Program-made: the position numbers and the translations under genes
The notes under the pieces: generated by a model
What the model saw: the letters and a program-made list of their open reading frames with translations, nothing else
Database searches by the model: none
Told to the model about the DNA's origin: nothing
NCBI GenBank assembly: GCA_958295695.1
Contig: OY282363.1
Span: forward strand, 3,228,225-3,292,224
Source of the DNA: an uncultured Alphaproteobacteria bacterium
GTDB taxonomy: Bacteria; Pseudomonadota; Alphaproteobacteria; SP197
DNA length: 64,000 nt
Direction: 5' to 3'
Shown here: piece by piece, positions 9,781-64,000 of the stretch
Numbering within the stretch: position 1 is the stretch's first letter
How the letters are laid out: every line of letters starts with the position of its first letter

Positions 9781-9901
9781 GCGCGCCCGGCGGCGTCTCC
9801 GCCGCCGGGCGCGCTCTCATGGCCCTCCGGCGAGATACAAGGGGGGAGCGTCCGCGCGCCCCACCCCGAATCCCCTCACCTCGAGGCGCGCGGAACGGCC
9901 C

Positions 9902-48944: not shown

Positions 48945-50093
48945 ATGCAAAAAGACATGCACTACTACGGGACCTACGCGATGGCCCGCGCTGCCGGTCT
49001 GGCACCGAAGGTTTGCCAGACCATCGCGACGGCCGCCGAGTTCGTCGACGACAACGGGGATAGGGAGACGATCGAATTTCCGGACGGCGGCCGCCTCGAC
49101 TTCGTGCCCACGGCACACCATGCCGCGGACATCAAGAATATAGACCGTCACGATCAACGCCTCATCTGGGTGCCGTTTCACTTTATTCCGGGCAACCAGG
49201 GCAGGACGATGTCCGAACGCTTCCTGTGCCGGAAGGACAGCGGGATTGCCCGCGAGATGATCGACCACAATCTGTCTCTAGCCGACAAGCCATTCGGACT
49301 CCACCTCGTCGGCATCACCGCGCACGTTTACGCCGATACCTTCTCACACTACGGCTTTTCCGGAGTGAGTTCGCGCTGGAACAGGATCGATTCATCGTCG
49401 TTCGATCTCGTCGATGTCGATCCGGAAATCCTGGACTACATCCGGAAGAAGGAAAGCCGTTTCCGAGAAAAATACGGCGAGGAGGCAGGCGAGCTTCTCA
49501 ACATTCGCAATCCCGAGAGATGGAATGTCGGTCTCTCCAGCGCGATCTCGAGACTCAGGGATCGTTTCGTCAGCGATGCGGCCGAGATATTGTCCGGCGC
49601 GCTGGGTCACGGCGCGGCTCTTACGTATCCCGATCGTCCATACCTTCGATGGCGGTTCGATTACGAATATCCCCGGAGACGCTCATCCGGCCCGCGGGAC
49701 AATCCTGCTACGTTTCTTGAAGGCTGCGAGAAGCTGCACAATATGTTCCGTCAACTGGGTGTTCCGGGCGAGGGCGGCGGGCAGGACGAGGGACGGCCTT
49801 TCCAGGATATTCGAGCTTCGGTCGCTCGAATCCTCGCGACGCAGGCATCCCGTGAAGGCCGGGAAAAAGCGTGGAAAGACGCCGCCAGGGCCGGCGAACT
49901 GTTCGTCGCGGCGGAGGCCATTCTCCCCTACCAAGGCGCCCAGTGGAAGAGAGGGCTTGACGGCTTGAGAAGGGCCACGGATTCGCGCAAGGCTCTCGAC
50001 AAGCCGATCTTCCGGTTTTTCCAGGCGGCCGCGGCACACCGAACCTTCATTCTTCGCGATCTTCTGCCGAGACACGGCCTCGTGGTCGATTGA
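48945..50093 (+). CDS. DUF6765-like protein
   Basis: 382-residue protein starting MQKDMHYYGTYAMARAAGL, the signature of the DUF6765 family. HLVGITAHVYADTFSHYGFSG and TAHHAADIKNID supply closely spaced His and Asp residues, similar in spirit to zinc-dependent phospholipase C/S1-P1 nuclease folds, so a metal-dependent hydrolase is possible. No signal peptide is evident. The GGGAGAAGG ribosome site supports ATG 48945 over the TTG at 48921. Its last 166 bp overlap the 3' end of the relaxase frame on the other strand. Function unknown. Confidence 0.75.
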   Translation: MQKDMHYYGTYAMARAAGLAPKVCQTIATAAEFVDDNGDRETIEFPDGGRLDFVPTAHHAADIKNIDRHDQRLIWVPFHFIPGNQGRTMSERFLCRKDSGIAREMIDHNLSLADKPFGLHLVGITAHVYADTFSHYGFSGVSSRWNRIDSSSFDLVDVDPEILDYIRKKESRFREKYGEEAGELLNIRNPERWNVGLSSAISRLRDRFVSDAAEILSGALGHGAALTYPDRPYLRWRFDYEYPRRRSSGPRDNPATFLEGCEKLHNMFRQLGVPGEGGGQDEGRPFQDIRASVARILATQASREGREKAWKDAARAGELFVAAEAILPYQGAQWKRGLDGLRRATDSRKALDKPIFRFFQAAAAHRTFILRDLLPRHGLVVD

Positions 50094-52996
50094 ACGATGC
50101 CCACAGGCAAGGAATCGGAAAATGTCGCAGAGCGATGATGGAGCGTCCGATGCGGGCTCGCTATGGATGTTGTGTCTTTTTCGCCAGGAATCCCGAGCCT
50201 CTCGTGTTGTCTCCTGGAAAACTTCCAACGTGTTGATTGAGTAGTCCGAAAAACTTTTCCTGTCTCGCTCAGCTCGCCGGTCGCGGTTTCCAGTCTCTCG
50301 CGGAGCGCCTTGGCGTCGTCGGTGACCAGCTCCGCCCTGTGCCGGGCGCGGCCGATCTCGACGTAGAAGCTCTTTTGCGTCGTCAGGTGCGGATGGTTCG
50401 CCTCCATGACGGCGATGACGTTGTCGACCGTGCGCCCCTGGAACGCATGCACGGTAGACGCCCAGGCGTGATCCAGGTGTCGGAGTTGCGGGTCCTTACG
50501 CCCGAGTTCGAGCCGCCGCCCGTCCTCGAGCCGGAAGGCGACGCGGTTCCCCCGAACCGACGAGACCTCGGCGGTGTGGCTGTTGACGAGGCCGAACCGG
50601 GCGTCGTTCCGGGTCCAGCGGATGCGGTCTCCGGCGCGCAGCGCGATCCCCTCGGCGCGGTAGACCTCGACGGCGCCGCGCCTGCCGCCCACGCGGCGGG
50701 GCCGCCAGGGAACCGGTCCTCTTCCTTCCCCTTCCAGGATCACTATTCCTCTCGCGCGATCGACGCGGGCGATCCGGCGTTCCTCGCCCTTCTCGACTCC
50801 GAGACTCTTGTAGGCGCGGTGGAACGCCACCACGTCGCCGGGCGCGTAGTTGGCGGCGAGCGCCTTCTCCGCGCCGGTGTAGCCATATGACACCAGCCGT
50901 TCGACATCGAGAGCCGCCCCATGGATCGCGCCGTCGCGGGCGAGACGTTCGCGGATATGGCCGTTGACGGCCTGCCGCAGTTCATGGCTCGGCGCCATCA
51001 GTCCGGCGTTCTCGCGTTCGGACGCCGAGAGTCGGAGCCAGCGCGCGGCGGCCGCGCCGGCGAGATTGTCCGCCTTCACCTCCGCGACGTTGGACCCGAG
51101 CTTCTCGAACGCCTTGCGCACATCGCCCGCGAGGCTCGCCTCGACGGCGGCCTTCAAACCCGCGTCGCGCTGGCGCATGATCTCGTCCATGGTCGCCGTC
51201 TTCATGCCCGCCCGCTGCAACTGCGCGAAGGGCTTGCCGGCATCGACCGCATCGAGCTGCTTCTCGTCGCCGACCAGCACGACCCGGGGAATGCGCAGGG
51301 TGTTGGCGATCCGCAGGAGATCGCGGGCCTGGACGGTGGAGGCGAGCGAACCCTCGTCCACGACCAGCACCGTCTTCTTGAACGCGGCGCGCATCTGGCG
51401 CTCGCCCCTGTCCGTGAGCCGTCCCTGAGCGACGCCGGCGTTGCGGGCGAGGAACCGTTGCAGGGTCTCGCTTCGGATGCCGGCTTCGTTCTCCAGGGTG
51501 CGCGCGGCCGAGGCCGACGGGGCCAAGCCCTTGACCTCGAACCCGCGCTTCTCCAGGAGCGCGCGGGCGCGGTTCAGCATCGCGGTCTTGCCGGTCCCCG
51601 CGTAGCCTTGGACGCCCACCGTCCGGTCGCTCGAAGACAGGATCAGCTTCACCGCGTCCTTCTGCCCGGGCGTGAGGGGGCCGTTGCGCAGCACCTTGCC
51701 GACGGCGCGGCCGCGCATGACGGACGCGCCCCGGTCCCGGCCACTCCGCATCAGGGCGACGGTCTCCTTCTCGTCGGCGACCGCCTTGTCGGTGGTGAGC
51801 AACTGCCCGGGAACGGGCAGGTTCGCGGCGTGCAACGTCCCGGCCTTCTCCAATCGTGTTACCGCGTCTTCGGCCTCGCCGATCGCCACCGCGCCGGGAC
51901 GCCAGGCGAGCATGGCGGCCAGCAGGTCGGTGCGCGAGAACACCGCCTCGCGCTCGGAGAGATGCGCCACCGCCCACGCCGCGGCCCGGTCGGCCTCGGC
52001 AACCTTCCCCGAACGCTGCCGGTCGTCGGAAGGACCCGTAGCGTCACGGCCCGCGTCCTTGCCGGCCTCCCGTGGCACGGCTTCCGCGGCAAGCGTCCGC
52101 GCGTCGAAGCCGAGACCGGCTGCTTGTTTTTCCCAACTCTGCCGAAGTGCTTCCTTGTCGACGTCGCGCTTGTGGGCGCGGGTCATCAGCGCCGCGCGCT
52201 GGGCGAGGCTCTGATTCCCGGCAGTGTCGCCGGGACCGTGCTTCGCCATCGCCGCCTCGATCTCGGCGCGCCGCGTCGAGAACGCCTCGACGGTCGCGCG
52301 CGGAACCCCGGCGATCTCGAAGCGCCCGTCGGCATGGGTCTTCTCGATGCGGTAGCCGAGCGCTCCCAACTCCCGCGCCAGTTCGCTCCGGTACATGGCG
52401 CCGACCGGCATCTTCGAGGCGTAGAGCTTCTCGTTCGCCATCGTGCGCCACTTGCCGTCCTCGCCCCGGACCATGTTGGCGATCACCGCATGGGTGTGGA
52501 GTTGCGGATCGAGGTTGCGCGAGGTGTCGTGGCGGAAGGTCGCGGCGACCATGCCCTGGCCGCCGGCGCGGACCATGCGTCCGGTCTCCGGGTCCTTCAT
52601 CCGGGTCTCGACGACGTTGGCCTCGATCCATGCGAGGGTGCGCGTCACCGCCCGGTCGTGCGCGGCGACGACGCGCCCGTCGCCGCCGATCAGGGCCGCG
52701 AGAGAGACGGACTTGGGAGCGGAAAAGGTGACGTCTCGTCCGGGCCGGTGATGGACGTTGCCGTCCCTGTCCTTGCGCCCGAGCCGGCGGCCCGTTCCGT
52801 CCGGGACCTCTCCCGCCAGCACGTCCTTGAACGTGTCCGCGTCGACGGGTCCTTCGAGGCCGAGCGCCTCGGCGCCCTTGCCGAACCAGGCGCTGCCTTC
52901 CTTGTGGGCGGGATCGTCCCTGGCGTAGTAGCCGTCGCGCTCGTAGTAGGTGACGCCTTGGGCGGGCGAGGCGACCGCGCCGATGGAGGCGACCAT
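49928..52996 (-). CDS. MobF-family conjugative relaxase/helicase (TraA/TrwC-like), odd C-terminus
   Basis: 1022-residue relaxase. The N-terminal nicking domain has paired tyrosines Tyr17-Tyr18 and Tyr23-Tyr24 (GVTYYERDGYY) and the metal-binding histidines His156, His167 and His169 (FRHDTS, QLHTHAVIAN). The helicase domain has Walker A VQGYAGTGKTAML, Walker B VLVVDEGSLAS and late motif STVHAFQGRTVDNV. Recognisable homology ends near SETGKVFR (about 50250); the last 107 residues are antisense to the DUF6765 gene and unlike relaxases, so the original 3' end was probably lost. It lies 1 nt after the coupling-protein remnant. Confidence 0.86.
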   Translation of the reverse strand: MVASIGAVASPAQGVTYYERDGYYARDDPAHKEGSAWFGKGAEALGLEGPVDADTFKDVLAGEVPDGTGRRLGRKDRDGNVHHRPGRDVTFSAPKSVSLAALIGGDGRVVAAHDRAVTRTLAWIEANVVETRMKDPETGRMVRAGGQGMVAATFRHDTSRNLDPQLHTHAVIANMVRGEDGKWRTMANEKLYASKMPVGAMYRSELARELGALGYRIEKTHADGRFEIAGVPRATVEAFSTRRAEIEAAMAKHGPGDTAGNQSLAQRAALMTRAHKRDVDKEALRQSWEKQAAGLGFDARTLAAEAVPREAGKDAGRDATGPSDDRQRSGKVAEADRAAAWAVAHLSEREAVFSRTDLLAAMLAWRPGAVAIGEAEDAVTRLEKAGTLHAANLPVPGQLLTTDKAVADEKETVALMRSGRDRGASVMRGRAVGKVLRNGPLTPGQKDAVKLILSSSDRTVGVQGYAGTGKTAMLNRARALLEKRGFEVKGLAPSASAARTLENEAGIRSETLQRFLARNAGVAQGRLTDRGERQMRAAFKKTVLVVDEGSLASTVQARDLLRIANTLRIPRVVLVGDEKQLDAVDAGKPFAQLQRAGMKTATMDEIMRQRDAGLKAAVEASLAGDVRKAFEKLGSNVAEVKADNLAGAAAARWLRLSASERENAGLMAPSHELRQAVNGHIRERLARDGAIHGAALDVERLVSYGYTGAEKALAANYAPGDVVAFHRAYKSLGVEKGEERRIARVDRARGIVILEGEGRGPVPWRPRRVGGRRGAVEVYRAEGIALRAGDRIRWTRNDARFGLVNSHTAEVSSVRGNRVAFRLEDGRRLELGRKDPQLRHLDHAWASTVHAFQGRTVDNVIAVMEANHPHLTTQKSFYVEIGRARHRAELVTDDAKALRERLETATGELSETGKVFRTTQSTRWKFSRRQHERLGIPGEKDTTSIASPHRTLHHRSATFSDSLPVGIVQSTTRPCLGRRSRRMKVRCAAAAWKNRKIGLSRALRESVALLKPSSPLFHWAPW

Positions 52997-52997
52997 C

Positions 52998-54044
52998 TCA
53001 GATCCGGATCGGCCCGCTCGCCGGCTTCCCGTCGCCGGGGGCGGAGCCGTCCCGCGCGTCCGGCCGGTTCGCAACCGGGGAACTGTCGCTCGCGTCCCCA
53101 CCGCTGCCTTCCCTGGAACGTTCTTCTCCGGGGCTCGGCCGGAAGGCCTCCGCGTTCTCTCCGCCCGCATCGGCCGTCGTCGGTAACGGGTCGATCTCCT
53201 CCGGCCAGCCTTCGGCGGCGCGGCTCATTGCCCATGTTTCGAGATCCCGTTCCACCCAATCCGCCGCCGTCGGGTCGGGTTCCCACAAGTCGACCGCGGC
53301 CTCCGCGTCGTGCGCCGGCCCGGTCGCGTCCTTCGTCCCGCCCGGCTTTCCCTTTGCGGCCTTCGAACCCGGTCGGGCGGCCTCGCGATCGGCTTCCCCG
53401 GCGCCGGCTTCCCCTTCCGCCCTCGGCACGAACCGCTCGGCGACCTTGGGGCGTTTCGCGCACAGCAGCTTGATTCGCGCGACCGGCCACGCGCCGGGGA
53501 GCTTGAGGTAGCCGGCGAGGCTGTCGAGACGGGCGATCTCGGCCGGCAGCACCGGCAGACGCGGCGCGCACCGGAGTTGGCGGGCGGAGAGCGGTTCGCC
53601 GCCGCGCGGGCGCCACCCGCGCTTGAGCCTGCCGCCGGCGTAGTGGAGCGCGGCGAGCGCGACGACGGCGAGGCCGATACCGATCCCCAATCCTAGCAGG
53701 GCCGCGTTCAGGAGGTCGCCGATGATGCGCTCGCGCAATGCGAGCAGCGGCCGGTGGCCGGCGATGGCGCCGAGGGTCACGGTCTCGGTTCTTCCGTCCG
53801 CATGCCGTATCTCCTTGGGCCGGTGGGGGCTCAGGCCGGCATCGATGAGGGTCTCGGCGAGCACGAGCATACCGACGGCGTACCACTGGTGGGCGGTGGT
53901 GGTGCGCGCGGCCTTCCAGGCGGCGGCGCTGGCGGCGCCGATCAGGGCGGCGGCGAGAACCATGCCGACGAGCCGCCTCCAGGTGCGCAGGCCGCGGGCG
54001 GTGGCGCGGACGCCGCGCCCGGTATCGCCCCCGGCCCCGGTCAC
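52998..54044 (-). CDS. Coupling-protein (TraD-like) remnant lacking the ATPase core
   Basis: 348 residues from a GTG at 54044. The N-terminus has two membrane segments (LVGMVLAAALIGAASAAAW and LLNAALLGLGIGIGLAVVAL) around a periplasmic loop, as in TraD-type coupling proteins of elements with TraA relaxases. Normally a 400-residue RecA-like ATPase follows; here the chain goes from GGRLKRGWRPRGGEPL directly to LDSLAGYLKLPGAWPVARIK, a segment typical of the region near or within coupling proteins, and then to an acidic disordered tail. No Walker A or B is present. It appears to be an in-frame internal deletion. Identification of the family is by layout and is moderate. Confidence 0.5.
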   Translation of the reverse strand: MTGAGGDTGRGVRATARGLRTWRRLVGMVLAAALIGAASAAAWKAARTTTAHQWYAVGMLVLAETLIDAGLSPHRPKEIRHADGRTETVTLGAIAGHRPLLALRERIIGDLLNAALLGLGIGIGLAVVALAALHYAGGRLKRGWRPRGGEPLSARQLRCAPRLPVLPAEIARLDSLAGYLKLPGAWPVARIKLLCAKRPKVAERFVPRAEGEAGAGEADREAARPGSKAAKGKPGGTKDATGPAHDAEAAVDLWEPDPTAADWVERDLETWAMSRAAEGWPEEIDPLPTTADAGGENAEAFRPSPGEERSREGSGGDASDSSPVANRPDARDGSAPGDGKPASGPIRI

Positions 54045-54776: not shown

Positions 54777-55034
54777 ATGAGTTCCACCGTCACCGTCCGC
54801 GATATCGACCCGGGAGACAAATCCTGGCTCAAGCGCGAAGCACGCCAAGCTAGCGTTTCGATGGAAGAGTTCGTCCGCCGCCTCATTCGCGAGAAGCGCG
54901 TCAAGACTGAACGCCGCCCGATGCCCTCCGAGGCATTCCAGCGGCATTTCGGGCCCGGGCACGGGGTCGAGTTGCCGCCGCCCGCGCGCCATGGCTACCG
55001 GCCGGTCGCGTTCGCCGACGAGAGCGGGGCGTGA
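54777..55034 (+). CDS. vapB: VapB/FitA-type antitoxin
   Basis: 85-residue ribbon-helix-helix antitoxin: SSTVTVRDIDPGDKSWLKRE, then SVSMEEFVRRLIREKR. The C-terminal tail (residues 45-85) should wrap the toxin. A GGAGAAG ribosome site precedes ATG 54777. Its TGA overlaps the GTG start of the toxin gene by 4 nt (GTGA), the standard antitoxin-first arrangement, and the pair should repress its own promoter. Confidence 0.85.
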   Translation: MSSTVTVRDIDPGDKSWLKREARQASVSMEEFVRRLIREKRVKTERRPMPSEAFQRHFGPGHGVELPPPARHGYRPVAFADESGA

Positions 55035-55462
55035 CCGCGCCGCTCGCCTGGCTCCTCGACACGAACGTCGTCTCGGAGATGATGCGACCTAATCCGGAGC
55101 CGCGCGTCGCCGGGTTCCTCGACAAGATCGCCGACGAGGGGATCGGCCTCGCGTCGGTCACCGTCTGGGAAATCCTCGACGGCATCGGTCGCCTCGACCC
55201 CGGACGGCGCCGGAACGACCTCGCCGAACGGTTCCAGGACCTGCTCGACGAGCTGTTCGAGGACCGGATCGTCGACTGGACCCTGGCCGACGCCCGAGCG
55301 TGTGCCCGTGTCATGGAGGAGAAGCGGCGCCGGGGCGAACCGCTCGACGACCACCTGCCGGACGCCATGCTCGCCGGAACGGCCGTCCGCCTCGAGCTCG
55401 CCGTCGTCACGCGGAACACGGGCGAATTCCGAAACACCGGCATCGCGGTTGCCGACCCGTAG
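55031..55462 (+). CDS. vapC: VapC PIN-domain ribonuclease toxin
   Basis: 143-residue PIN-domain RNase. All four catalytic acids are visible: Asp in WLLDTNVVSEMMRP, Glu in VTVWEILDGIGRLDPGRR, Asp in DDHLPDAMLAGTAV, and the terminal acidic/Asn segment VVTRNTGEFRNTGI, where the usual Asp is Glu. Length is normal. It is translated from GTG 55031 overlapping vapB. VapC toxins cleave tRNA or rRNA. This pair is intact, unlike the other toxin-antitoxin fragments in the window. Confidence 0.87.
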   Translation: MTAPLAWLLDTNVVSEMMRPNPEPRVAGFLDKIADEGIGLASVTVWEILDGIGRLDPGRRRNDLAERFQDLLDELFEDRIVDWTLADARACARVMEEKRRRGEPLDDHLPDAMLAGTAVRLELAVVTRNTGEFRNTGIAVADP

Positions 55463-55607
55463 ACCGATCCGCTGCCATGATGCCGCAACGCCGCATTGAC
55501 GCCGATGGATGTCCGAGCCCTGCCCGAATCCCGACGTCACGGCCCGAACGGCCGAATCGACCGACATCGAAATCCGCGTCGATGGAAACAGCGGGAGAGG
55601 GACGGCC

Positions 55608-57689
55608 GTGAGCGGCCTGAACATAGACAACTTCATCTGGAGCATCGCCGATGACGTGCTCCGCGATGTCTATGTGCGGGGAAAATACAGGGACGTCATC
55701 CTGCCGATGATCGTGATCCGCCGCCTCGACGCGGTGCTCGATCCGACCAGGGACGCCGTGCTCGGGATGAGCGGGCAACTGGACAAGGCGGGGATCGCCA
55801 ATCAGGACGCGGCGCTTCGTCAAGCCTCCGGCGAGGCATTCTACAACACCTCGCCCTTCCGGCTTCGCGACCTCGCGTCCCGCGCCCGCCGCCAGAGCCT
55901 CAAGGCGGATTTCGAGGCCTATCTCGACGGCTTCTCGCCCAACGTTCAGGAGGTCCTGGACAAGTTCAAGTTCCGCAACCAGATCCCGACGCTCGTGGAG
56001 GCGGACGCGCTCCGGTTCCTGATCGAGAAGTTCCTGGACCCGTCGATCAATCTCGGCCCCAAACCCGTTCTGAACCAGGACGGGACCGTCCGCCTGCCCG
56101 GTCTCGACAACCATGCGATGGGCACGATCTTCGAGGAGCTGGTCCGGCGCTTCAACGAAGAGAACAACGAGGAGGCCGGCGAGCACTTCACCCCGCGCGA
56201 CGTGGTGGAGCTGATGGCTCACCTGATCTTCAAGCCGGTCGCCGACGACATCCGATCCGGCACCTGGCTCGTCTATGACGGCGCCTGCGGCACCGGCGGC
56301 ATGCTGACCGTGGCCGAAGAGACGCTGGTCCGGCTCGCGGCCGGTCACGGCAAGGAGGTCTCCGTCCATCTCTACGGCCAGGAGGTCAATCCCGAGACCT
56401 TCGCCATCAGCAAGGCCGACCTGATCCTCAAGGGCGAGGGAGTGGAAGCCGACAACATGGCATACGGCTCGACGCTGGCGGGCGATGCGTTCCCGTCGCG
56501 GGAGTTCGATTTCATGCTGTCGAACCCGCCCTACGGCAAATCCTGGAAGACGGACCTCGAACGGCTGGGCGGCAAGAAGGATATCCGCGACCCCCGGTTC
56601 GTGATCGAGCACGGCGGCGATCCCGAATACAGCCTGATTACGCGCTCGAGCGACGGCCAGATGCTGTTCCTCGCCAACATGTTGAGCAAGATGAAGACAT
56701 CCTCGCCGCTCGGCAGCCGCATCGCCGAGGTCCATAACGGCTCGTCGCTGTTCACCGGCGACGCGGGCTCGGGCGAGAGCAACATCCGCCGCTGGATCGT
56801 CGAGAAAGACTGGCTCGAGGCCATCGTCGCCCTGCCGCCCAACATCTTCTACAACACCGGCATCGCGACCTATATCTGGGTGCTGAGCAACCGCAAGGCG
56901 CCCGAACGGCGCGGGAAGGTCCAGCTCATCGACGCCACGGGTTGGTCCAGACCGTTGCGCAAGAACCTGGGCAAGAAGAACTGCGAACTCGGCCCCGACG
57001 ATATCGAACGCATCTGTACCGCCTTCCTGCGTTTGGAAGACAGCGGCCGGTCGAAAGTCTTCCCCAACGAGGCGTTCGGTTATTGGAAGGTGACGGTCGA
57101 GCGGCCGCTGCGGCTCGAGGTCGCGCTTACGGAAAGCGCCCTGCAACGGTTCCGGACCGCATGTGCGGAAGCCTCGGAAGCGCCGCTCGCCGATATCGTG
57201 GACGGTGTGGCGCGAAAGCTCGGCGCGGGGCCGCACCGGGACTTCAACCGGTTCCTGGAGGCCGTGGAGACCGAGGCGGCCGGGCGCCCGCGCATGACGG
57301 CCAAGCGCCGTAAGCTGCTGGCGGCGGCGCTCGGGACCCGGGATCCCGAAGCCGAACCCGTGGTCATCAAAGACACGGCGGCCGGGAACGGCGCCGGCCC
57401 GGAGCGCGCCGTCGAATACGAGCCGGACCCGGCGCTGCGCGATACCGAGCAGGTGCCGTTGTTGGAGGACGGCGGTATCGAGGCCTTCTTCCGGCGCGAA
57501 GTGCTGCCCTACGCGCCCGACGCCTGGATCGACGAGTCGAAGACGGCCATCGGCTACGAGATCTCCTTCACCCGGCATTTCTACAAGCCGAAGCTCCTGC
57601 GGACCCTCGAAGAGATCGAGGCCGACATCCGGGCGCTGGAGAAGGAGACCGAGGGGCTGCTCGACGATCTGCTGGCGGGACGCGGTTGA
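55608..57689 (+). CDS. hsdM: Type I restriction-modification DNA methyltransferase HsdM
   Basis: 693-residue N6-adenine methyltransferase. The N-terminal bundle starts LNIDNFIWSIADDVLRDVYV. Motif I is DGACGTGGML (about residue 224) and motif IV is SNPPYGKSW (about residue 306). The C-terminal 200 residues are longer than in short HsdM proteins and end in a coiled segment EIEADIRALEKETEGLLDD that should contact HsdS. The GTG at 55608 has a GGGAGAGGG ribosome site; an in-frame ATG at 55509 is the alternative. It is the first gene of the operon that runs to the window edge. Confidence 0.9.
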   Translation: MSGLNIDNFIWSIADDVLRDVYVRGKYRDVILPMIVIRRLDAVLDPTRDAVLGMSGQLDKAGIANQDAALRQASGEAFYNTSPFRLRDLASRARRQSLKADFEAYLDGFSPNVQEVLDKFKFRNQIPTLVEADALRFLIEKFLDPSINLGPKPVLNQDGTVRLPGLDNHAMGTIFEELVRRFNEENNEEAGEHFTPRDVVELMAHLIFKPVADDIRSGTWLVYDGACGTGGMLTVAEETLVRLAAGHGKEVSVHLYGQEVNPETFAISKADLILKGEGVEADNMAYGSTLAGDAFPSREFDFMLSNPPYGKSWKTDLERLGGKKDIRDPRFVIEHGGDPEYSLITRSSDGQMLFLANMLSKMKTSSPLGSRIAEVHNGSSLFTGDAGSGESNIRRWIVEKDWLEAIVALPPNIFYNTGIATYIWVLSNRKAPERRGKVQLIDATGWSRPLRKNLGKKNCELGPDDIERICTAFLRLEDSGRSKVFPNEAFGYWKVTVERPLRLEVALTESALQRFRTACAEASEAPLADIVDGVARKLGAGPHRDFNRFLEAVETEAAGRPRMTAKRRKLLAAALGTRDPEAEPVVIKDTAAGNGAGPERAVEYEPDPALRDTEQVPLLEDGGIEAFFRREVLPYAPDAWIDESKTAIGYEISFTRHFYKPKLLRTLEEIEADIRALEKETEGLLDDLLAGRG

Positions 57690-57726
57690 CGGGCTTCGCC
57701 GGCGCCCGGTGTATGGCGCGCGCTGT

Positions 57727-57824
57727 CCGCCTATGTTATCGCCACACGATAACATAGGCGGCGCGCTGTCCCATAGTGTCAACAATTATTAACATGGACA
57801 GCGAGGCGCCCCATGTTATCGCCA
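57727..57824. promoter_or_regulatory. Operator candidate upstream of fic: 15-bp inverted repeat plus a third half-site
   Basis: CCGCCTATGTTATCG (57727-57741) and CGATAACATAGGCGG (57747-57761) are perfect inverted repeats with a 5-nt spacer. ATGTTATCGCCA recurs at 57813-57824 in direct orientation. An A/T-rich stretch (CAACAATTATTAACATGG) between them is the likely promoter. The hairpin could also terminate hsdM transcripts, but it lacks a T-tract and the third copy argues for protein binding. Confidence 0.65.
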
Positions 57825-57865
57825 GGGTGCAATATGGGGCGAGTCGCGTCTCGATGGGGCAAGCC

Positions 57866-59065
57866 ATGGCGGACACAAGCGGAACGAACGGTCGAGGCCG
57901 CGCCGGCGGTTACGTTCTCCAGCCCGACGGCTACCGGGCATTCGTTCCCGCTCCGCTGCCGCCACGGCCGCCGGTTCGCATGGCGGGAACCGTACAGGCC
58001 CTGTTGTCGGCGGCCGACCGCGCCTTGGGCAGGCTGGACGGCGCCATCCACACATTGCCCGAGGCGGACCTCTTCGTGCTCATGTACGTGCGCAAGGAGG
58101 CCGTGCTCTCCAGCCAGATCGAGGGCACGCAGAGTTCTCTCCGGGACGTGCTTGCCGCCGAGGCGCGTCTTCTGTCGCCCCGCGGCGCCGGGGACGCGGG
58201 CGAAGTGATCAACTATGTGGCGGCCATGAACCACGGACTCGAACGGTTGCCCGACCTGCCTCTGTCCGTTCGCCTGATCCGCGAGATGCACGAAAGGCTG
58301 CTGGAGGGCGTGCGCGGCGGCCGTTCGACACCGGGCGAACTACGCCGGTCGCAGAACTGGATCGGCCCGGCCGGCTGCACGCCACGCGACGCGGTCTTCG
58401 TTCCTCCTCCCTTCGAGGAGGTGCCGCGCGCGTTGGGCGATCTGGAGACCTTTCTCCACCGGAACGACGATCTCCCCCCGCTCGTCCGGATCGGGTTGGC
58501 CCATGCCCAGTTCGAGACGGTTCACCCCTTCCTCGACGGCAACGGCCGGGTGGGGCGGCTGTTGATCGCGTTTTTTCTCTGCGAAAGGAAAATCCTCGCG
58601 AAACCGGTCCTCTACATCTCGCATTTTTTCAAGCGGCATCGGGGCGAGTATTACGAGCGTCTTCAGGCGGTGCGCGACGCCGGCGATTGGGAAGGATGGC
58701 TCGCGTTCTTCCTGCGCGGCGTGGCGGAGGTCGGCGACGAAGCCGTCGCGACGGCTCGGCGCATCCTCGACCTGCGAGAGGCGCACCGCGCCGCCGTCAC
58801 CGCCCACCTCGGACGGGCCGCCGGCAACGGCCATCGGGTGCTCGAAGCGCTGTACCGGACGCCCGTGGTCACGGTTGCCGACGTTCGGGGAATCGCCGGC
58901 CTCAGCTACCCGGCGGCGAACAACCTCGTCGCGCGCCTGGTTTCGATCGGTATTCTGGAGCAGTTCGGGGATCGCAAACGCAACCGGGCGTTCTTCTATC
59001 GCGATTACGTCCGCGTGTTCGCGGACGACCCGGAACCCGTGCCCGGCGAGGGGCAAGCGGCATGA
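57866..59065 (+). CDS. Fic-domain AMP-transferase with C-terminal winged helix
   Basis: About 399 residues. The Fic active-site motif HPFLDGNGRVGRLL (about residue 220) is complete, so AMP (or other nucleotide) transfer is expected. The inhibitory helix SSQIEGTQSSL (about residue 82) provides the Glu that autoinhibits class II Fic proteins. The C-terminal region VLEALYRTPVVTVADVRGIA then GLSYPAANNLVARLVSIGIL is a winged helix-turn-helix, typical of Fic regulators that bind their own promoter. In-frame ATGs at 57854 and 57794 are alternative starts. Its stop overlaps hsdS by 4 nt, placing it inside the restriction operon. Confidence 0.85.
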   Translation: MADTSGTNGRGRAGGYVLQPDGYRAFVPAPLPPRPPVRMAGTVQALLSAADRALGRLDGAIHTLPEADLFVLMYVRKEAVLSSQIEGTQSSLRDVLAAEARLLSPRGAGDAGEVINYVAAMNHGLERLPDLPLSVRLIREMHERLLEGVRGGRSTPGELRRSQNWIGPAGCTPRDAVFVPPPFEEVPRALGDLETFLHRNDDLPPLVRIGLAHAQFETVHPFLDGNGRVGRLLIAFFLCERKILAKPVLYISHFFKRHRGEYYERLQAVRDAGDWEGWLAFFLRGVAEVGDEAVATARRILDLREAHRAAVTAHLGRAAGNGHRVLEALYRTPVVTVADVRGIAGLSYPAANNLVARLVSIGILEQFGDRKRNRAFFYRDYVRVFADDPEPVPGEGQAA

Positions 59066-60318
59066 CGCCTGCCCTCGAGCCCTATCCGGCCTATCGGGAC
59101 AGCGGTTTGCCCTGGCTCGGGGACGTGCCGAAGCATTGGGAAGTGCGGCGGCTGAAATCCTGCGTGAAAGATGTTATCGACATGACGAGGGAGCGTGAGC
59201 CGGGCGATAATTACGTCGCCTTGGAACATGTAGAAAGTTGGACAGGTAAGACCTCCGATGTGGATCTCGACACGTCATTCGAGAGCCAAGTAAAGCGCTT
59301 TCGGCCCAACGATGTGCTGTTCGGAAAGCTCCGGCCATATTTGGCGAAAACGACACGACCTGATCGGGAAGGTGTCTGCGTTGGGGAATTTCTTGTGCTG
59401 CGCTCTTGCAGCGGTAATCCCCTACCGAGTTATCTTGAGGCTTCGCTTCGCTCAAGACCCGTGATCGATGCCATCGACGCTTCTACGTTCGGCGCAAAGA
59501 TGCCACGAGCCGATTGGCGGTTCATCGGCAATATGGGCTTTCCGCTTCCGCCCCTCTCCGAACAGGCGGCCATCGCCCGCTATCTCGATCATGTCGGTGA
59601 GCGTGTTGATTTTTATATCGGAGCCAAGGAGCGTCTGATCGCCCTGCTGAACGAGAAGAAGCAGGCAATCGTCAATCGAGCGGTCACGCGCGGCCTCGAT
59701 CCGAGCGCCCCGATGAAGCCGACGGACATAGACTGGATGCCGGAGGCGCCGGCGCATTGGGAGATCGTGAAGCTCAAAAGATTGGCACGGATGCGAAGCG
59801 GTGAAGGGATTACTGCGGAGACCATCAGGGAGATAGGGCCATACCGAGTTTTTGGCGGCAATGGAATCAGAGGACACACTGATCGCTTTACACACGATGG
59901 TGTCTTCGCCCTAATCGGTAGACAAGGTGCACTCTGCGGAAACGTGCATCTGGCGTCGGGTCAATTTTGGGCCTCTGAGCATGCGATAGTTGCATCCCTC
60001 AAGGCGCCAAACAATATCCGTTGGTTTGTCGATCTTCTGCGAATCATGAACCTGAACCAATATTCCGAGGCCGCAGCTCAGCCGGGTTTGGCGGTAGATC
60101 ACATTGTCAATCTTTACATCCCTGCACCCCCGAAGGATGAACAAGAAGCGATCGCACGTTACCTTAGCGACGAGTCCAACGATCTGGACACCGCCATCGA
60201 CCGCGCTCGCCGCCAGATCGGCCTCCTCCGCGAATACCGGGAACGCCTGATAAGCGATGTCGTCACCGGCAAGCTGGATGTACGCGAAGCTCGTGCCGGG
60301 AACGGTGGGAGTTCCTGA
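59062..60318 (+). CDS. hsdS: Type I restriction specificity subunit HsdS
   Basis: 418 residues with two target-recognition domains and two conserved helices. Repeats in the two halves are DSGLPWLGDVPKHWEVRRLK and DIDWMPEAPAHWEIVKLKRL, LPPLSEQAAIARYLDH and APPKDEQEAIARYLSDE, and ALLNEKKQAIVNRAV and LLREYREQ-like RERLISDVV. It determines the DNA sequence recognised by the HsdMRS complex. The recognition domains (about 59170-59470 and 59790-60130) have visibly lower GC than the rest of the operon, as is common for exchanged recognition domains. ATG overlaps the fic stop (ATGA). Confidence 0.9.
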   Translation: MTPALEPYPAYRDSGLPWLGDVPKHWEVRRLKSCVKDVIDMTREREPGDNYVALEHVESWTGKTSDVDLDTSFESQVKRFRPNDVLFGKLRPYLAKTTRPDREGVCVGEFLVLRSCSGNPLPSYLEASLRSRPVIDAIDASTFGAKMPRADWRFIGNMGFPLPPLSEQAAIARYLDHVGERVDFYIGAKERLIALLNEKKQAIVNRAVTRGLDPSAPMKPTDIDWMPEAPAHWEIVKLKRLARMRSGEGITAETIREIGPYRVFGGNGIRGHTDRFTHDGVFALIGRQGALCGNVHLASGQFWASEHAIVASLKAPNNIRWFVDLLRIMNLNQYSEAAAQPGLAVDHIVNLYIPAPPKDEQEAIARYLSDESNDLDTAIDRARRQIGLLREYRERLISDVVTGKLDVREARAGNGGSS

Positions 60319-60455
60319 TCGAACGCTCTTTCCCGTGGACGCTGGTCCGGCGCATCGGCGTACACTCGCAGGGCACTTGGTGGCCCGCCAGCACGGCCGC
60401 GCAGTCCACCGATCACCGGCCGTCTGTCCAAATCCTTCCGCAATGGTATTATTGA
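60306..60455 (+). pseudogene. darT: darT toxin gene, C-terminal relic
   Basis: In a frame different from hsdS, the 3' end of hsdS and the gap after it read WEFLIERSFPWTLVRRIGVH then SQGTWWPASTAAQSTDHRPS then VQILPQWYY and a stop. This matches the C-terminus of DarT DNA ADP-ribosyltransferases (FPWxLVExIGVxS...HRPxVxIRPxWYY). Only 49 codons survive; the NAD-binding and catalytic parts are gone. It ends 18 nt before the darG start, the normal darT-darG spacing. The upstream part was evidently replaced by hsdS sequence. Confidence 0.75.
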
Positions 60456-60473: not shown

Positions 60474-61532
60474 ATGATCCGCTTCAAGGCCGGCGACATC
60501 CTCGCCGAGGATGTGGAGGCCCCGGTCAACACGGTCAACTGCGTCGGCGTCATGGGGCGCGGCATCGCGTCGCGGTTCAAGAAGGCGTTTCCGGACAATT
60601 TCGAGGCCTACGCGGCGGCCTGCGAGCGTGGGGAGGTGAAGCCGGGCCGGATGTTCGTGTTCGAGACGGGCGCGCTCACCAACCCCCGCTACGTCGTCAA
60701 CTTCCCCACCAAGCGGCACTGGCGCGGCAAGAGCCGGATGGCGGATGTGGAGGAGGGGTTGAAGGCGCTGGCCGCCGAGATCGAGGCCCGGAACATCCGC
60801 TCCATCGCCGTTCCGCCGCTCGCCTGCGGCTTGGGCGGCCTTGCCTGGGACGACGTGCGCCCGCGCATCGAAGCGGCGCTGGCGGGCTTCGGCGACCTGC
60901 GGGTCGTCGTCTTCGAGCCAGGCGGCGCGCCGGAGGCGAAGGACATGGCGCGCGGACGGGAGGCGCCGGAGATGACCCCCGGCCGCGCGGTGCTGGTGGG
61001 GCTGATGCGCCGCTATCTCGACGCCATGCTCGATCCCTTCGTGACCCTACTGGAGGCGCACAAGCTGATGTACTTCATGCAGGAGGCAGGCGAGCCGCCG
61101 CGGCTGCGCTATGTCAAGGCGCCTTACGGCCCCTATGCGGAGAACCTGCGGCACACCCTGAACGAGATCGAAGGGCATTTCATATCGGGCTATGCCGACG
61201 GCGGCGACGCGCCGGACAAGCCGCTGGAGCTCGTCCCCGGCGCCGTCGAGGACGCGGAGGCGGCGCTCGAACGCGCGGACCGGACGCGGACACGCTTCGA
61301 GCGGGTGGCCGAACTGGTCCACGGCTTCGAATCGTCCTTCGGCCTCGAACTCCTCGCGACCGTCCATTGGGTGATGATGCGCGAGGGCGCCGGAGCGATG
61401 GACGACGCGGTCACCCGCGCCCACGGCTGGCATGAACGCAAGAAAGCCTTCTCCCTCCGCCAGATCGCGCTGGCGGCGGAGCGGCTGCGGGAGAAGGGCT
61501 GGATCGACGCCGCGCAGCGGGCGCCCCGATGA
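60474..61532 (+). CDS. darG: DarG-like macro-domain antitoxin (DNA ADP-ribosylglycohydrolase)
   Basis: 352 residues. The N-terminal macro domain (1-150) has PVNTVNCVGVMGRGIASRFK, YVVNFPTKRHWRGKSRM and IAVPPLACGLGGLAWDDVRP, the DarG signature that removes ADP-ribose from thymidine in DNA. The C-terminal domain (about 165-345: VLVGLMRRYLDAMLDPFVTL, LMYFMQEAGEPPRLRYVK) matches the DarT-binding part of full-length DarG. The usual upstream toxin gene is reduced to a relic. Its stop overlaps the hsdR start (ATGA), so it is locked into the restriction operon. Confidence 0.84.
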   Translation: MIRFKAGDILAEDVEAPVNTVNCVGVMGRGIASRFKKAFPDNFEAYAAACERGEVKPGRMFVFETGALTNPRYVVNFPTKRHWRGKSRMADVEEGLKALAAEIEARNIRSIAVPPLACGLGGLAWDDVRPRIEAALAGFGDLRVVVFEPGGAPEAKDMARGREAPEMTPGRAVLVGLMRRYLDAMLDPFVTLLEAHKLMYFMQEAGEPPRLRYVKAPYGPYAENLRHTLNEIEGHFISGYADGGDAPDKPLELVPGAVEDAEAALERADRTRTRFERVAELVHGFESSFGLELLATVHWVMMREGAGAMDDAVTRAHGWHERKKAFSLRQIALAAERLREKGWIDAAQRAPR

Positions 61533-64000
61533 CGGCCGACACGAGCGAGCGCGGCCTTGAAGACCTGATCGTCGCCCACCTGACCGGCATCCCGCGGGAT
61601 CGGCGCCGAGGCGGGTTCGAGGAGACTCCGGAACCCCTCGCTGGCCTCTACGGTTATGTCCTCGGCGACCCCCGGGACTACGACCGCGACCACGCCATCG
61701 ACACGGCCAGGCTCTTCGCCTTCCTGAACGCGACGCAGCCCGAGGCCGTCGAGACGCTTGGCGTCGGCGCCGACGGACCGCAACGCCTGCGGTTCCTCCA
61801 CCGCCTGCGCGACGAGATCGACAAGCGCGGCGTCATCGACGTGCTGCGAAAGGGTATCGGGCACGGACCGGCCTCGGTGGAGCTGTTCCACGGCACGCCG
61901 ACCCCCGGCAACGCCAAGGCGGAGGCGCTGTTCGCCCAGAACATCTTCAGCGTCACTCGCCAACTCCGCTATTCGAAGGACGAGACCCGGCTCGCGCTCG
62001 ACCTCGCGCTGTTCGTCAACGGCCTGCCCATCGCCACCTTCGAGCTCAAGAACAGCCTGACCAAGCAGACGGTCGAGGACGCCGTCGAACAGTACCGGCG
62101 CGACCGCGACCCGAAGGAGCCGCTGTTCCGGTTCGGCCGCTGCGTCGTCCATTTCGCGGTGGACGACCACGAGGTACGGATGTGCACGCACCTGCGCGGC
62201 AAGGACTCGTGGTTCCTGCCCTTCAACAAGGGCTGGGACGACGGCGCGGGCAACCCGCCCAACCCCGATGGCCTCAAGACCGACTATCTGTGGAAGGAGG
62301 TTCTGGCCAGGGAGAACCTGACCGACATCCTCGAGAACTACGCCCAGGTGGTCGAGGAAAGGGACGACAGGGGCCGGAAGAAGGCGCGGAAGCAGATCTT
62401 CCCGCGGTTCCACCAGCTCGACGCCGTGCGCAAGCTGCTGGCGGACGCCGAGGCCTCCGGCGCGGGCAAGCGCTATCTGATCCAGCATTCCGCCGGTTCG
62501 GGCAAGAGCAACTCCATCGCCTGGCTCGCACATCGGCTGATCGGTCTGGAGACCGATGGCCGGCCGACGTTCGATTCGGTCATCGTCGTGACCGACCGGC
62601 GGGTTCTCGACAGGCAGATCCGCGACACCATCAGGCAGTTCGCGCAGGTGTCGTCCATCGTCGGCCATGCCGAGCGATCCGGCGACCTCCGCGCGTTTCT
62701 CGCGAGCGGCAAGAAGGTCGTCGTCACCACGGTGCAGAAGTTCCCCTTCGTCCTCGACGAGATCGGCGACGGGCACCGGGGCCGGCGCTTCGCCATCGTC
62801 ATCGACGAGGCGCATTCGAGCCAGGGCGGACGCACCAGCGCGGCGATGACGCGGGCGCTCTCCGATGCCGGAGAGGAGCGGGAGGAGGAGACCTTCGAGG
62901 ACCGGATCAACAATCTGATGGAGGCCCGGAAGATGCTGCCGAACGCGAGCTATTTCGCGTTCACGGCCACGCCGAAGAACAAGACGTTGGAGATTTTCGG
63001 CGCGCCCGCGCCGGAGAGCGGCAAGGTCAGGCACGTCCCCTTCCACGGCTACACGATGAAGCAGGCCATCCAGGAGGGCTTCATCCTCGACGTGCTGAAG
63101 CACTACACGCCGGTCGAAAGCTATTACCGGCTGATGAAGACGGTCGAGGACGATCCCGCGTTCGATGCCGCGCGGGCGCGGAAGAAGCTGCGCCGCTATG
63201 TCGAGTCCCATGAGCATGCGATCCGCCAGAAGGCGGAGATCATGATCGACCATTTCCACGATCGAGTGATCGCGCGGCGCAAGATCGGCGGCAAGGCGAG
63301 GGCCATGGTGGCGACCGGCGGCATCCGCCGGGCGATCCAGTACTTCCATGCCTTCGAGGATTGCCTGAAGGAACGCAAGAGCCCCTGGCGCGCCATCGTC
63401 GCGTTCTCGGGCGAGCACGACTACGGCGGGAGGAACGTGACCGAGGCTTCGCTCAACGGCTTTCCGAGCAACAGGATCGAAGAGACGATCGGGACCGACC
63501 CCTACCGCTTCCTGATCGTCGCCGACAAGTTCCAGACCGGCTACGACGAGCCGCTGCTGCACACGATGTACGTCGACAAGATCCTGTCCGGCATCAAGGC
63601 GGTGCAGACGCTCTCCCGGCTCAACCGCGCCCATCCGCTCAAGCACGACACCTTCGTGCTCGATTTCATGAACGACGCGGACACGATCGCCGCCGCGTTC
63701 CAGGACTACTACCGCACGACGATCCTCGGCGAGGAGACCGACCCCGACAAGCTGCATGACCTGATGGCGATCCTCGACAGCCGCCAAGTCTATTCCCGGG
63801 AGCAGGTCGAGGCGCTTGTGACGCTCTACCTTGGCGGGTGCGACCGGGACGAGCTCGACCCGATCCTCGACGCCTGCGTCGCCGTCTACCTGTCGGATCT
63901 CGACGAGGACGGCCAAGTGGACTTCAAGGGCAGGGCCAAGGCGTTCATGCGCACCTACGGCTTCCTGGCCGCGATCCTTCCCTACGGCAATCCGGAGTGG
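61529..64000 (+). CDS. hsdR: Type I restriction endonuclease/translocase HsdR (3' end beyond window)
   Basis: At least 824 residues, running off the right edge. The nuclease motif is ATFELKNSLTKQ (ExK, about residue 172), helicase Walker A is HSAGSGKSNSIAWL (about residue 320), the DEAH box is VIDEAHSSQGG (about 426), motif III is FTATPKNK, and motifs V-VI appear as KFQTGYDEPLL and VQTLSRLNR. It translocates DNA and cuts unmodified foreign DNA with HsdM and HsdS. It is translated by ATGA coupling from darG. Confidence 0.92.
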   Translation, partial: MTADTSERGLEDLIVAHLTGIPRDRRRGGFEETPEPLAGLYGYVLGDPRDYDRDHAIDTARLFAFLNATQPEAVETLGVGADGPQRLRFLHRLRDEIDKRGVIDVLRKGIGHGPASVELFHGTPTPGNAKAEALFAQNIFSVTRQLRYSKDETRLALDLALFVNGLPIATFELKNSLTKQTVEDAVEQYRRDRDPKEPLFRFGRCVVHFAVDDHEVRMCTHLRGKDSWFLPFNKGWDDGAGNPPNPDGLKTDYLWKEVLARENLTDILENYAQVVEERDDRGRKKARKQIFPRFHQLDAVRKLLADAEASGAGKRYLIQHSAGSGKSNSIAWLAHRLIGLETDGRPTFDSVIVVTDRRVLDRQIRDTIRQFAQVSSIVGHAERSGDLRAFLASGKKVVVTTVQKFPFVLDEIGDGHRGRRFAIVIDEAHSSQGGRTSAAMTRALSDAGEEREEETFEDRINNLMEARKMLPNASYFAFTATPKNKTLEIFGAPAPESGKVRHVPFHGYTMKQAIQEGFILDVLKHYTPVESYYRLMKTVEDDPAFDAARARKKLRRYVESHEHAIRQKAEIMIDHFHDRVIARRKIGGKARAMVATGGIRRAIQYFHAFEDCLKERKSPWRAIVAFSGEHDYGGRNVTEASLNGFPSNRIEETIGTDPYRFLIVADKFQTGYDEPLLHTMYVDKILSGIKAVQTLSRLNRAHPLKHDTFVLDFMNDADTIAAAFQDYYRTTILGEETDPDKLHDLMAILDSRQVYSREQVEALVTLYLGGCDRDELDPILDACVAVYLSDLDEDGQVDFKGRAKAFMRTYGFLAAILPYGNPEW

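Follow-up and report, generated by a model that had tools for sequence, protein, structure and literature searches.

Fic proteins with DNA-binding tails are common. In a search of titles and the beginnings of abstracts in mostly open-access literature, we found no Fic operator array and no Fic control of hsd genes, except for the action of CccR on its own promoter; among the articles consulted, an operator is given for CccR alone. The systems closest to the locus analysed here, a fic gene within a 64-kb stretch of DNA (the window, at its full length), are described below as they appear in the available portions of the cited articles.

CccR of Yersinia pseudotuberculosis is, like the window protein, a class II Fic protein with a C-terminal helix-turn-helix, and it represses its own gene as a dimer, at a palindrome near the -35 and -10 elements (PMC9755527). 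Its operator is a single palindrome with half-sites AGATAATCAT 26 bp apart, whereas the array analysed here consists of compact 27-bp dyads at a 40-bp pitch and lacks the CccR spacing of half-sites. Moreover, CccR is a secreted effector, whereas the window fic gene lies in a restriction operon and nothing here suggests secretion. The SoFic/Sofic anti-phage Fic proteins share their domains and fold with the window protein, which is also matched by the PADLOC SoFic model. The Escherichia coli Sofic protein is a toxic dimer, and a term search of the available text found no mention of Sofic controlling its own promoter (PMC12249575). Unlike in these systems, no 47-aa AS1-type gene directly follows the window fic gene, which is overlapped by hsdS instead. 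CbFic2 of Coxiella burnetii binds DNA by its C-terminal helix-turn-helix, and a switch from AMPylation to deAMPylation on DNA has been proposed; however, this host-directed effector was assayed on random DNA, with no operator given in the text available (PMC10628234). Finally, EcoprrI carries a toxin-like gene inside its hsd operon, as does the window, but there the Hsd complex holds the product, the anticodon nuclease PrrC, and the available account describes no operator array (PMC3874165).

A fic gene within a type I restriction operon

The genes of the locus, in order, are as follows.

55509..57689, + strand: hsdM, type I DNA methyltransferase subunit (Pfam N6_Mtase and HsdM_N; PADLOC MTase_I, E 3.7e-246)
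57866..59065, + strand: fic, class II SoFic-like AMPylase (Fic_N, Fic and C-terminal winged helix)
59062..60318, + strand: hsdS, specificity subunit (Pfam Methylase_S)
60306..60455, + strand: darT remnant, last ~50 codons only, in a frame different from that of hsdS (DarT profile positions 152-201, E 2.4e-5)
60474..61532, + strand: darG, macro-domain ADP-ribosyl glycohydrolase antitoxin with an intact reading frame (NCBIfam DarG, 443.8 bits, cut-off 250)
61529..64000, + strand: hsdR, restriction subunit, running past the window end (Pfam HSDR_N and SWI2_SNF2)

Together, hsdM, hsdS and hsdR (the last cut by the window end) constitute a type I restriction-modification operon. A gap of 176 bp separates hsdM from fic, whose translation may instead begin at the ATG at 57854. 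Further downstream, ATGA overlaps join the fic stop to the hsdS start and the darG stop to the hsdR start. The operon holds no intact DarTG pair, darG being complete and darT partial; darG is thus an orphan antitoxin retained in a restriction operon after loss of the toxin. On its small contig (G000:C2:20208-21647), this genome encodes another HsdM of the subfamily, 69% identical, and the region fetched around it contained no match to fic, hsdS or hsdR.

The features of the Fic protein are the following.

58109..58126, + strand: inhibitory-helix motif SSQIEG, residues 82-87 (S82, I85, E86 and G87 invariant in 61 homologues)
58523..58558, + strand: Fic motif HPFLDGNGRVGR (H220, P221 and D224-R228 invariant in 61 homologues)
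58811..58996, + strand: winged helix, predicted in the AlphaFold2 model
58907-58945, + strand: recognition helix, residues 348-360, predicted in the AlphaFold2 model

Fic inhibitory motifs have the form [S/T]xxxE[G/N], to which the N-terminal SSQIEG conforms, and HPFLDGNGRVGR conforms to the catalytic motif HPFx[D/E]GN[G/K]R. The intact active site and inhibitory helix claimed in the original prediction are thus both present. The C-terminal winged helix that it also claimed is confidently predicted by AlphaFold2 (mean pLDDT of the protein model, 93.2), with helix-turn-helix helices at residues 337-344 and 348-360 followed by two wing strands; at the profile level this domain gave a weak Pfam match (MarR_2, 19.4 bits against a cut-off of 27), the Fic_N and Fic domains being above cut-off. 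The model matched the folds of 3zcn and 3eqx, and that of CbFic2 (8cil) more weakly. The PADLOC SoFic model covered residues 22-386 (E 3.9e-118), and the NCBIfam SoFic equivalog model scored 156.3 bits, below its cut-off of 550. By its sequence, the protein is a SoFic-like relative, not a SoFic equivalog, of a class that includes anti-phage proteins. A fic relative in the same genus (L003, 75% identity) lacks the N-terminal part and is likely a gene remnant.

An array of dyads between hsdM and fic

The original prediction drew attention to TGTTATCG, said to occur three times around the fic start. Indeed, copies are found at 57734 (+), 57747 (-) and 57814 (+), and a fourth lies inside hsdS at 59172. 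Four copies in 64 kb compare with 0.42 expected, a count reached in 1 of 100 shuffles. The first two belong to the perfect 15-bp palindrome that had been described (arms 57727-57741 and 57747-57761, 5-nt gap). The copy at 57814, described as a third half-site, does exist but does not stand alone: it forms the left half of a degenerate dyad, CCATGTTATCGCCAGGGTGCAATATGG. The window contains two inverted repeats with arms of at least 15 nt and gaps of at most 20, against 0.05 per shuffled window (40 shuffles), the other being a G+C-rich repeat at 9781 with a gap of 4. Taken alone, a perfect inverted repeat with 15-nt arms is only moderately unusual. The 3.45-Mb genome has no second copy of the exact core of the hsdM-fic repeat, which rules out a REP or MITE repeat element.

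More telling is the organization of the gap, where three 27-bp dyads centred on 57744, 57784 and 57824 follow one another at a pitch of exactly 40 bp. Scores refer to the motif learned from related loci (see below).

57731..57757, centre 57744: predicted operator 1, 27 bp, CTATGTTATCGCCACACGATAACATAG, core of the perfect inverted repeat (13.7 bits, rank 2 in the window)
57771..57797, centre 57784: predicted operator 2, 27 bp, CCATAGTGTCAACAATTATTAACATGG, degenerate (1.1 bits, rank 10 in the window)
57811..57837, centre 57824: predicted operator 3, 27 bp, CCATGTTATCGCCAGGGTGCAATATGG (15.9 bits, rank 1 in the window)

Operator 2 scores low, with one mismatch to the pattern CYATRTT-N13-AAYATRG, and lies in the exact 40-bp register. 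When the 3.45-Mb genome was scanned with this pattern at up to one mismatch, the three array sites were recovered together with an isolated match at C1:1291850, itself carrying one mismatch; the reversed pattern gave zero matches. The isolated match looks like chance, and no trans targets of the motif were found in the genome. Since the matches comprise the array and one isolated place, there is no sign of a regulon, and control would be local. A search of 385 genomes of the class for a two-site array with up to three mismatches returned this genome alone, with no matches for the reversed control; as it demanded the exact 40-bp register and the outer letters of the window, this result speaks to specificity.

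Lying immediately downstream of hsdM, the perfect repeat could also act at the RNA level, its 15-bp stem and 5-nt loop forming a hairpin that ends or stabilises the hsdM message. We consider this very improbable. No intrinsic terminator (a G+C-rich stem followed by a T run) was found, which rules out the terminator reading, and the 40-bp register extends to sites 2 and 3, whose dyads are imperfect. As detailed below, the dyads are also kept in relatives, nearly all with no hsdM found upstream, and the operator sequence tracks the predicted DNA-reading helix.

Conservation of the array and its likely reader

Relatives of the fic gene were collected as the best 80 of at least 543 in genome contigs and the best 80 of 175 in viral contigs, with more from whole genomes; 175 relatives with 160 nt upstream yielded 156 non-redundant upstream regions. 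Dyads scoring at least 10 were present in 44 of these 156. They were present in 9 of 442 controls, which are regions upstream of other ORFs at those loci; at most three ORFs per locus were used, the longest being chosen, and the set will contain some spurious ones. Direct repeats scoring at least 8 were likewise enriched at particular lags: 31 (22/156 fic upstreams against 3/442 controls), 40 (17/156 against 3/442), 41 (28/156 against 3/442), 42 (11/156 against 3/442) and 51 (19/156 against 2/442). The peaks, at 31, 40-42, 51 and weakly 62, thus fall near whole helical turns.

We then learned a palindromic motif, CCATATTAAAGGCAGCCTTTAATATGG, from the upstream regions of 18 relatives that are at least 55% identical and have 6 or more of 14 helix residues in common, the window itself being left out. 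In the 64-kb window, its best match was at 57824 (15.9 bits) and its second at 57744 (13.7 bits), the next anywhere scoring 4.0. Among 30 shuffled training sets, the log-likelihood reached 174.8 at most, against 283.3 for the real set, and none placed a top-three match in the region. The result depends on close relatives: with training on 10 relatives of at most 62% identity it was lost, 57743 ranking third at 4.1 bits.

At least one site over 6 bits was carried by 14 of the 18 training relatives, and the learned motif found none in the other four (L031, L040, L042 and L047). In all 11 relatives with two or more sites, neighbours were 39-41 bp apart. The 40 and 40 spacing of the window recurs in L028 and L034; L033 has 40, 40 and 40, with an extra weak score between two of its sites, and L024 has 40 and 39. 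A single spacing of 40 was seen in L023, L029, L030 and L050 and of 41 in L025 and L026, while L027 has 63 and 40. The sources of the training records include Deltaproteobacteria, Eisenbacteria, Gammaproteobacteria, Gemmataceae, Planctomycetaceae, Gemmatimonadaceae, Acidobacteria and Phenylobacterium.

Outside the training set, the two best sites lay just upstream of fic at a 41-bp pitch in three of five loci. In L182 they scored 31.5 and 25.8 bits, the next scoring 0.2; in the plasmid loci of Microvirga (L231) and Phyllobacterium (L232) they were at -64 and -23. The two cyanobacterial loci, L229 and L230, had a single weak match before fic, at 7.7 bits, and scored better elsewhere in the locus. 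The Microvirga locus shares the letters TTATCG with the window, and its helix, VSFPNANNLV, resembles LSYPAANNLV of the window protein. Conservation of the repeat, which the original prediction proposed to look for at other hsdM-fic-hsdS loci, was thus found upstream of related fic genes generally and is not particular to that gene order. Different operator-like arrays, TTATTTCA / TGAAATAA, were seen in the last 160 nt upstream of distant fic genes (L058, L061, L077, L157 and L176).

Which protein reads the array was approached by covariation, comparing shared 8-mers in the 117 nt before the start with identity per 14-residue protein window in 144 homologues. Upstream-DNA similarity correlated best with residues 337-362 (r up to 0.155; mean 0.018, sd 0.043; 144 proteins, corrected for overall identity and G+C only, short of a full phylogenetic treatment). 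Each of the twelve best windows fell within the C-terminal winged-helix region, 321-382. For DNA at -420 to -303 (143 proteins), the best correlation was 0.035, elsewhere in the protein. The effect is small, but the covariation is good evidence, at the level of sequence, that Fic itself reads the array. In principle, the repeat could be bound by another regulator, be it a host factor, an Hsd protein or a TA protein; we think this highly unlikely, as the motif accompanies fic in distantly related bacteria and its variation follows that of the winged helix in the Fic protein. The learned motif, its conservation and its covariation with the helix-turn-helix region all support the operator nature of the repeat and its recognition by the Fic C-terminus, as had been claimed. 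As in CccR, palindromic elements, here three dyads, stand upstream of the protein's own gene. The likeliest reading is that Fic binds the array and turns down its own promoter, as CccR does.

Proposed control of fic and of the downstream genes

A standard promoter scan of the hsdM-fic gap returned no consensus promoter. Below its threshold, a single speculative candidate may be noted.

57749..57777, + strand: weak promoter candidate ATAACA-N17-CATAGT, 8 of 12 consensus positions, with the -35 in operator 1 and the -10 in operator 2

Among the relatives, a sigma-70 promoter matching at least 10 of 12 positions was visible in 28 of 156 fic upstreams, and in 14 of these 28 a hexamer lay inside a dyad arm (a raw overlap count), which suits repression. 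We took autorepression as the most likely direction of control because of this overlap, because CccR represses its own promoter through its palindrome (PMC9755527) and because SoFic-like proteins are toxic enough to require tight control (PMC12249575), the last two points as given in the available text of these articles.

The explanation that we favour, and hold to be probable, is that the Fic AMPylase is a local autorepressor acting via the three operators, and that the same promoter sets the supply of HsdS, DarG and HsdR. A SoFic-like class II AMPylase would then double as a local transcription factor: the dimeric protein would use its C-terminal winged helix to bind the three 27-bp palindromic operators, which at 40 bp apart (about four helical turns) would lie on one face of the DNA. 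Bound Fic would repress a promoter internal to the operon, in the hsdM-fic gap, and so keep a potentially toxic AMPylase low, and repression would be relieved during stress or infection. The fic promoter would also set the supply of HsdS, DarG and HsdR, given the fic-hsdS and darG-hsdR overlaps, and hsdM would be expressed from upstream. On the same grounds, co-control of hsdS, darG and hsdR with fic is likely, as far as can be judged from gene arrangement.

A narrower reading, to which we give a lesser but real chance, is that the Fic-bound dyads control fic alone: hsdS, darG and hsdR would owe their expression mainly to transcription continuing from hsdM or to other promoters, while fic would be a passenger defence gene that arrived in the operon by chance. 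Indeed, fic genes with their own operators are mostly found away from hsd genes, a Hsd or DarG homologue having been found near 8 of 206 collected fic loci, whose flanks are often short. Moreover, relatives of the window hsdM can precede hsdS without fic, as in L214, where a close relative is directly followed by hsdS. However, the ATGA overlaps of fic with hsdS and of darG with hsdR make one message likely, and the same order is found in L025, from a Gemmataceae genome, where dyads again follow hsdM and precede fic, and where an 88-codon ORF separates fic from hsdS and overlaps both. This is the one further case of the hsdM-fic-hsdS order among the 206 loci, in which the arrangement is therefore rare. 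The 88-codon ORF (L025:7191-7454) encodes two CxxC pairs, with sub-threshold zinc-ribbon matches only, and its start and stop codons overlap both fic and hsdS. On plasmid pSYSX of Synechocystis PCC 6803, a type I cluster contains a related fic gene and hsdS in convergent orientation. It seems that a fic gene, together with operators of its own, was inserted into an hsd operon, so that in our favoured explanation the genes after fic would come under Fic control.

The original prediction also had Fic sensing a signal and modifying a target, perhaps an Hsd subunit; we obtained no support for signal sensing or for Hsd modification. That Fic controls restriction directly by modifying an Hsd subunit appears to us a slim prospect. 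The position of fic within the operon and its intact active site would fit this reading, and prrC offers the precedent of a toxin gene located within a type I operon, its product held by the complex (PMC3874165, available text). Nevertheless, most fic relatives have no hsd genes found nearby, the figure of 8 in 206 making Hsd unlikely as a general target of the Fic family, and known Fic targets differ, for example topoisomerase IV (PMC7479194) and, for CccR, FtsZ (PMC10628234), according to the portions available.

A wider and more tentative proposal, which we regard as possible though doubtful, is that a widespread class of AMPylases are enzyme-regulators on same-face arrays with pitches of 31, 41, 51 or 62 bp, that is, whole helical turns. 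Such enzymes might be stored on DNA in an inactive or deAMPylating state; here, with the array built into a type I restriction operon, the enzyme would be a dedicated controller of HsdS and HsdR supply, released and active once infection brings a loss of repression.

The array supplies a testable operator motif and geometry for a SoFic-like branch present in many bacterial groups, and it offers a simple reporter assay for what releases SoFic-like enzymes. If true, the favoured explanation would amount to an unusual transcriptional control of type I restriction, whose control is mostly post-translational (ClpXP, subunit assembly) in the available part of PMC3874165.

Directly 5' of hsdM are FitA-like RHH and PIN genes (54777-55462), and a PIN gene and a small gene also lie upstream of fic on Picosynechococcus plasmid pAQ6 (L230). 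A MobF/TrwC-type relaxase gene is found near the hsd locus (49928-53170, - strand), and the same relaxase type occurs near fic on the plasmids of L230 and L231, a hint of a mobile element.
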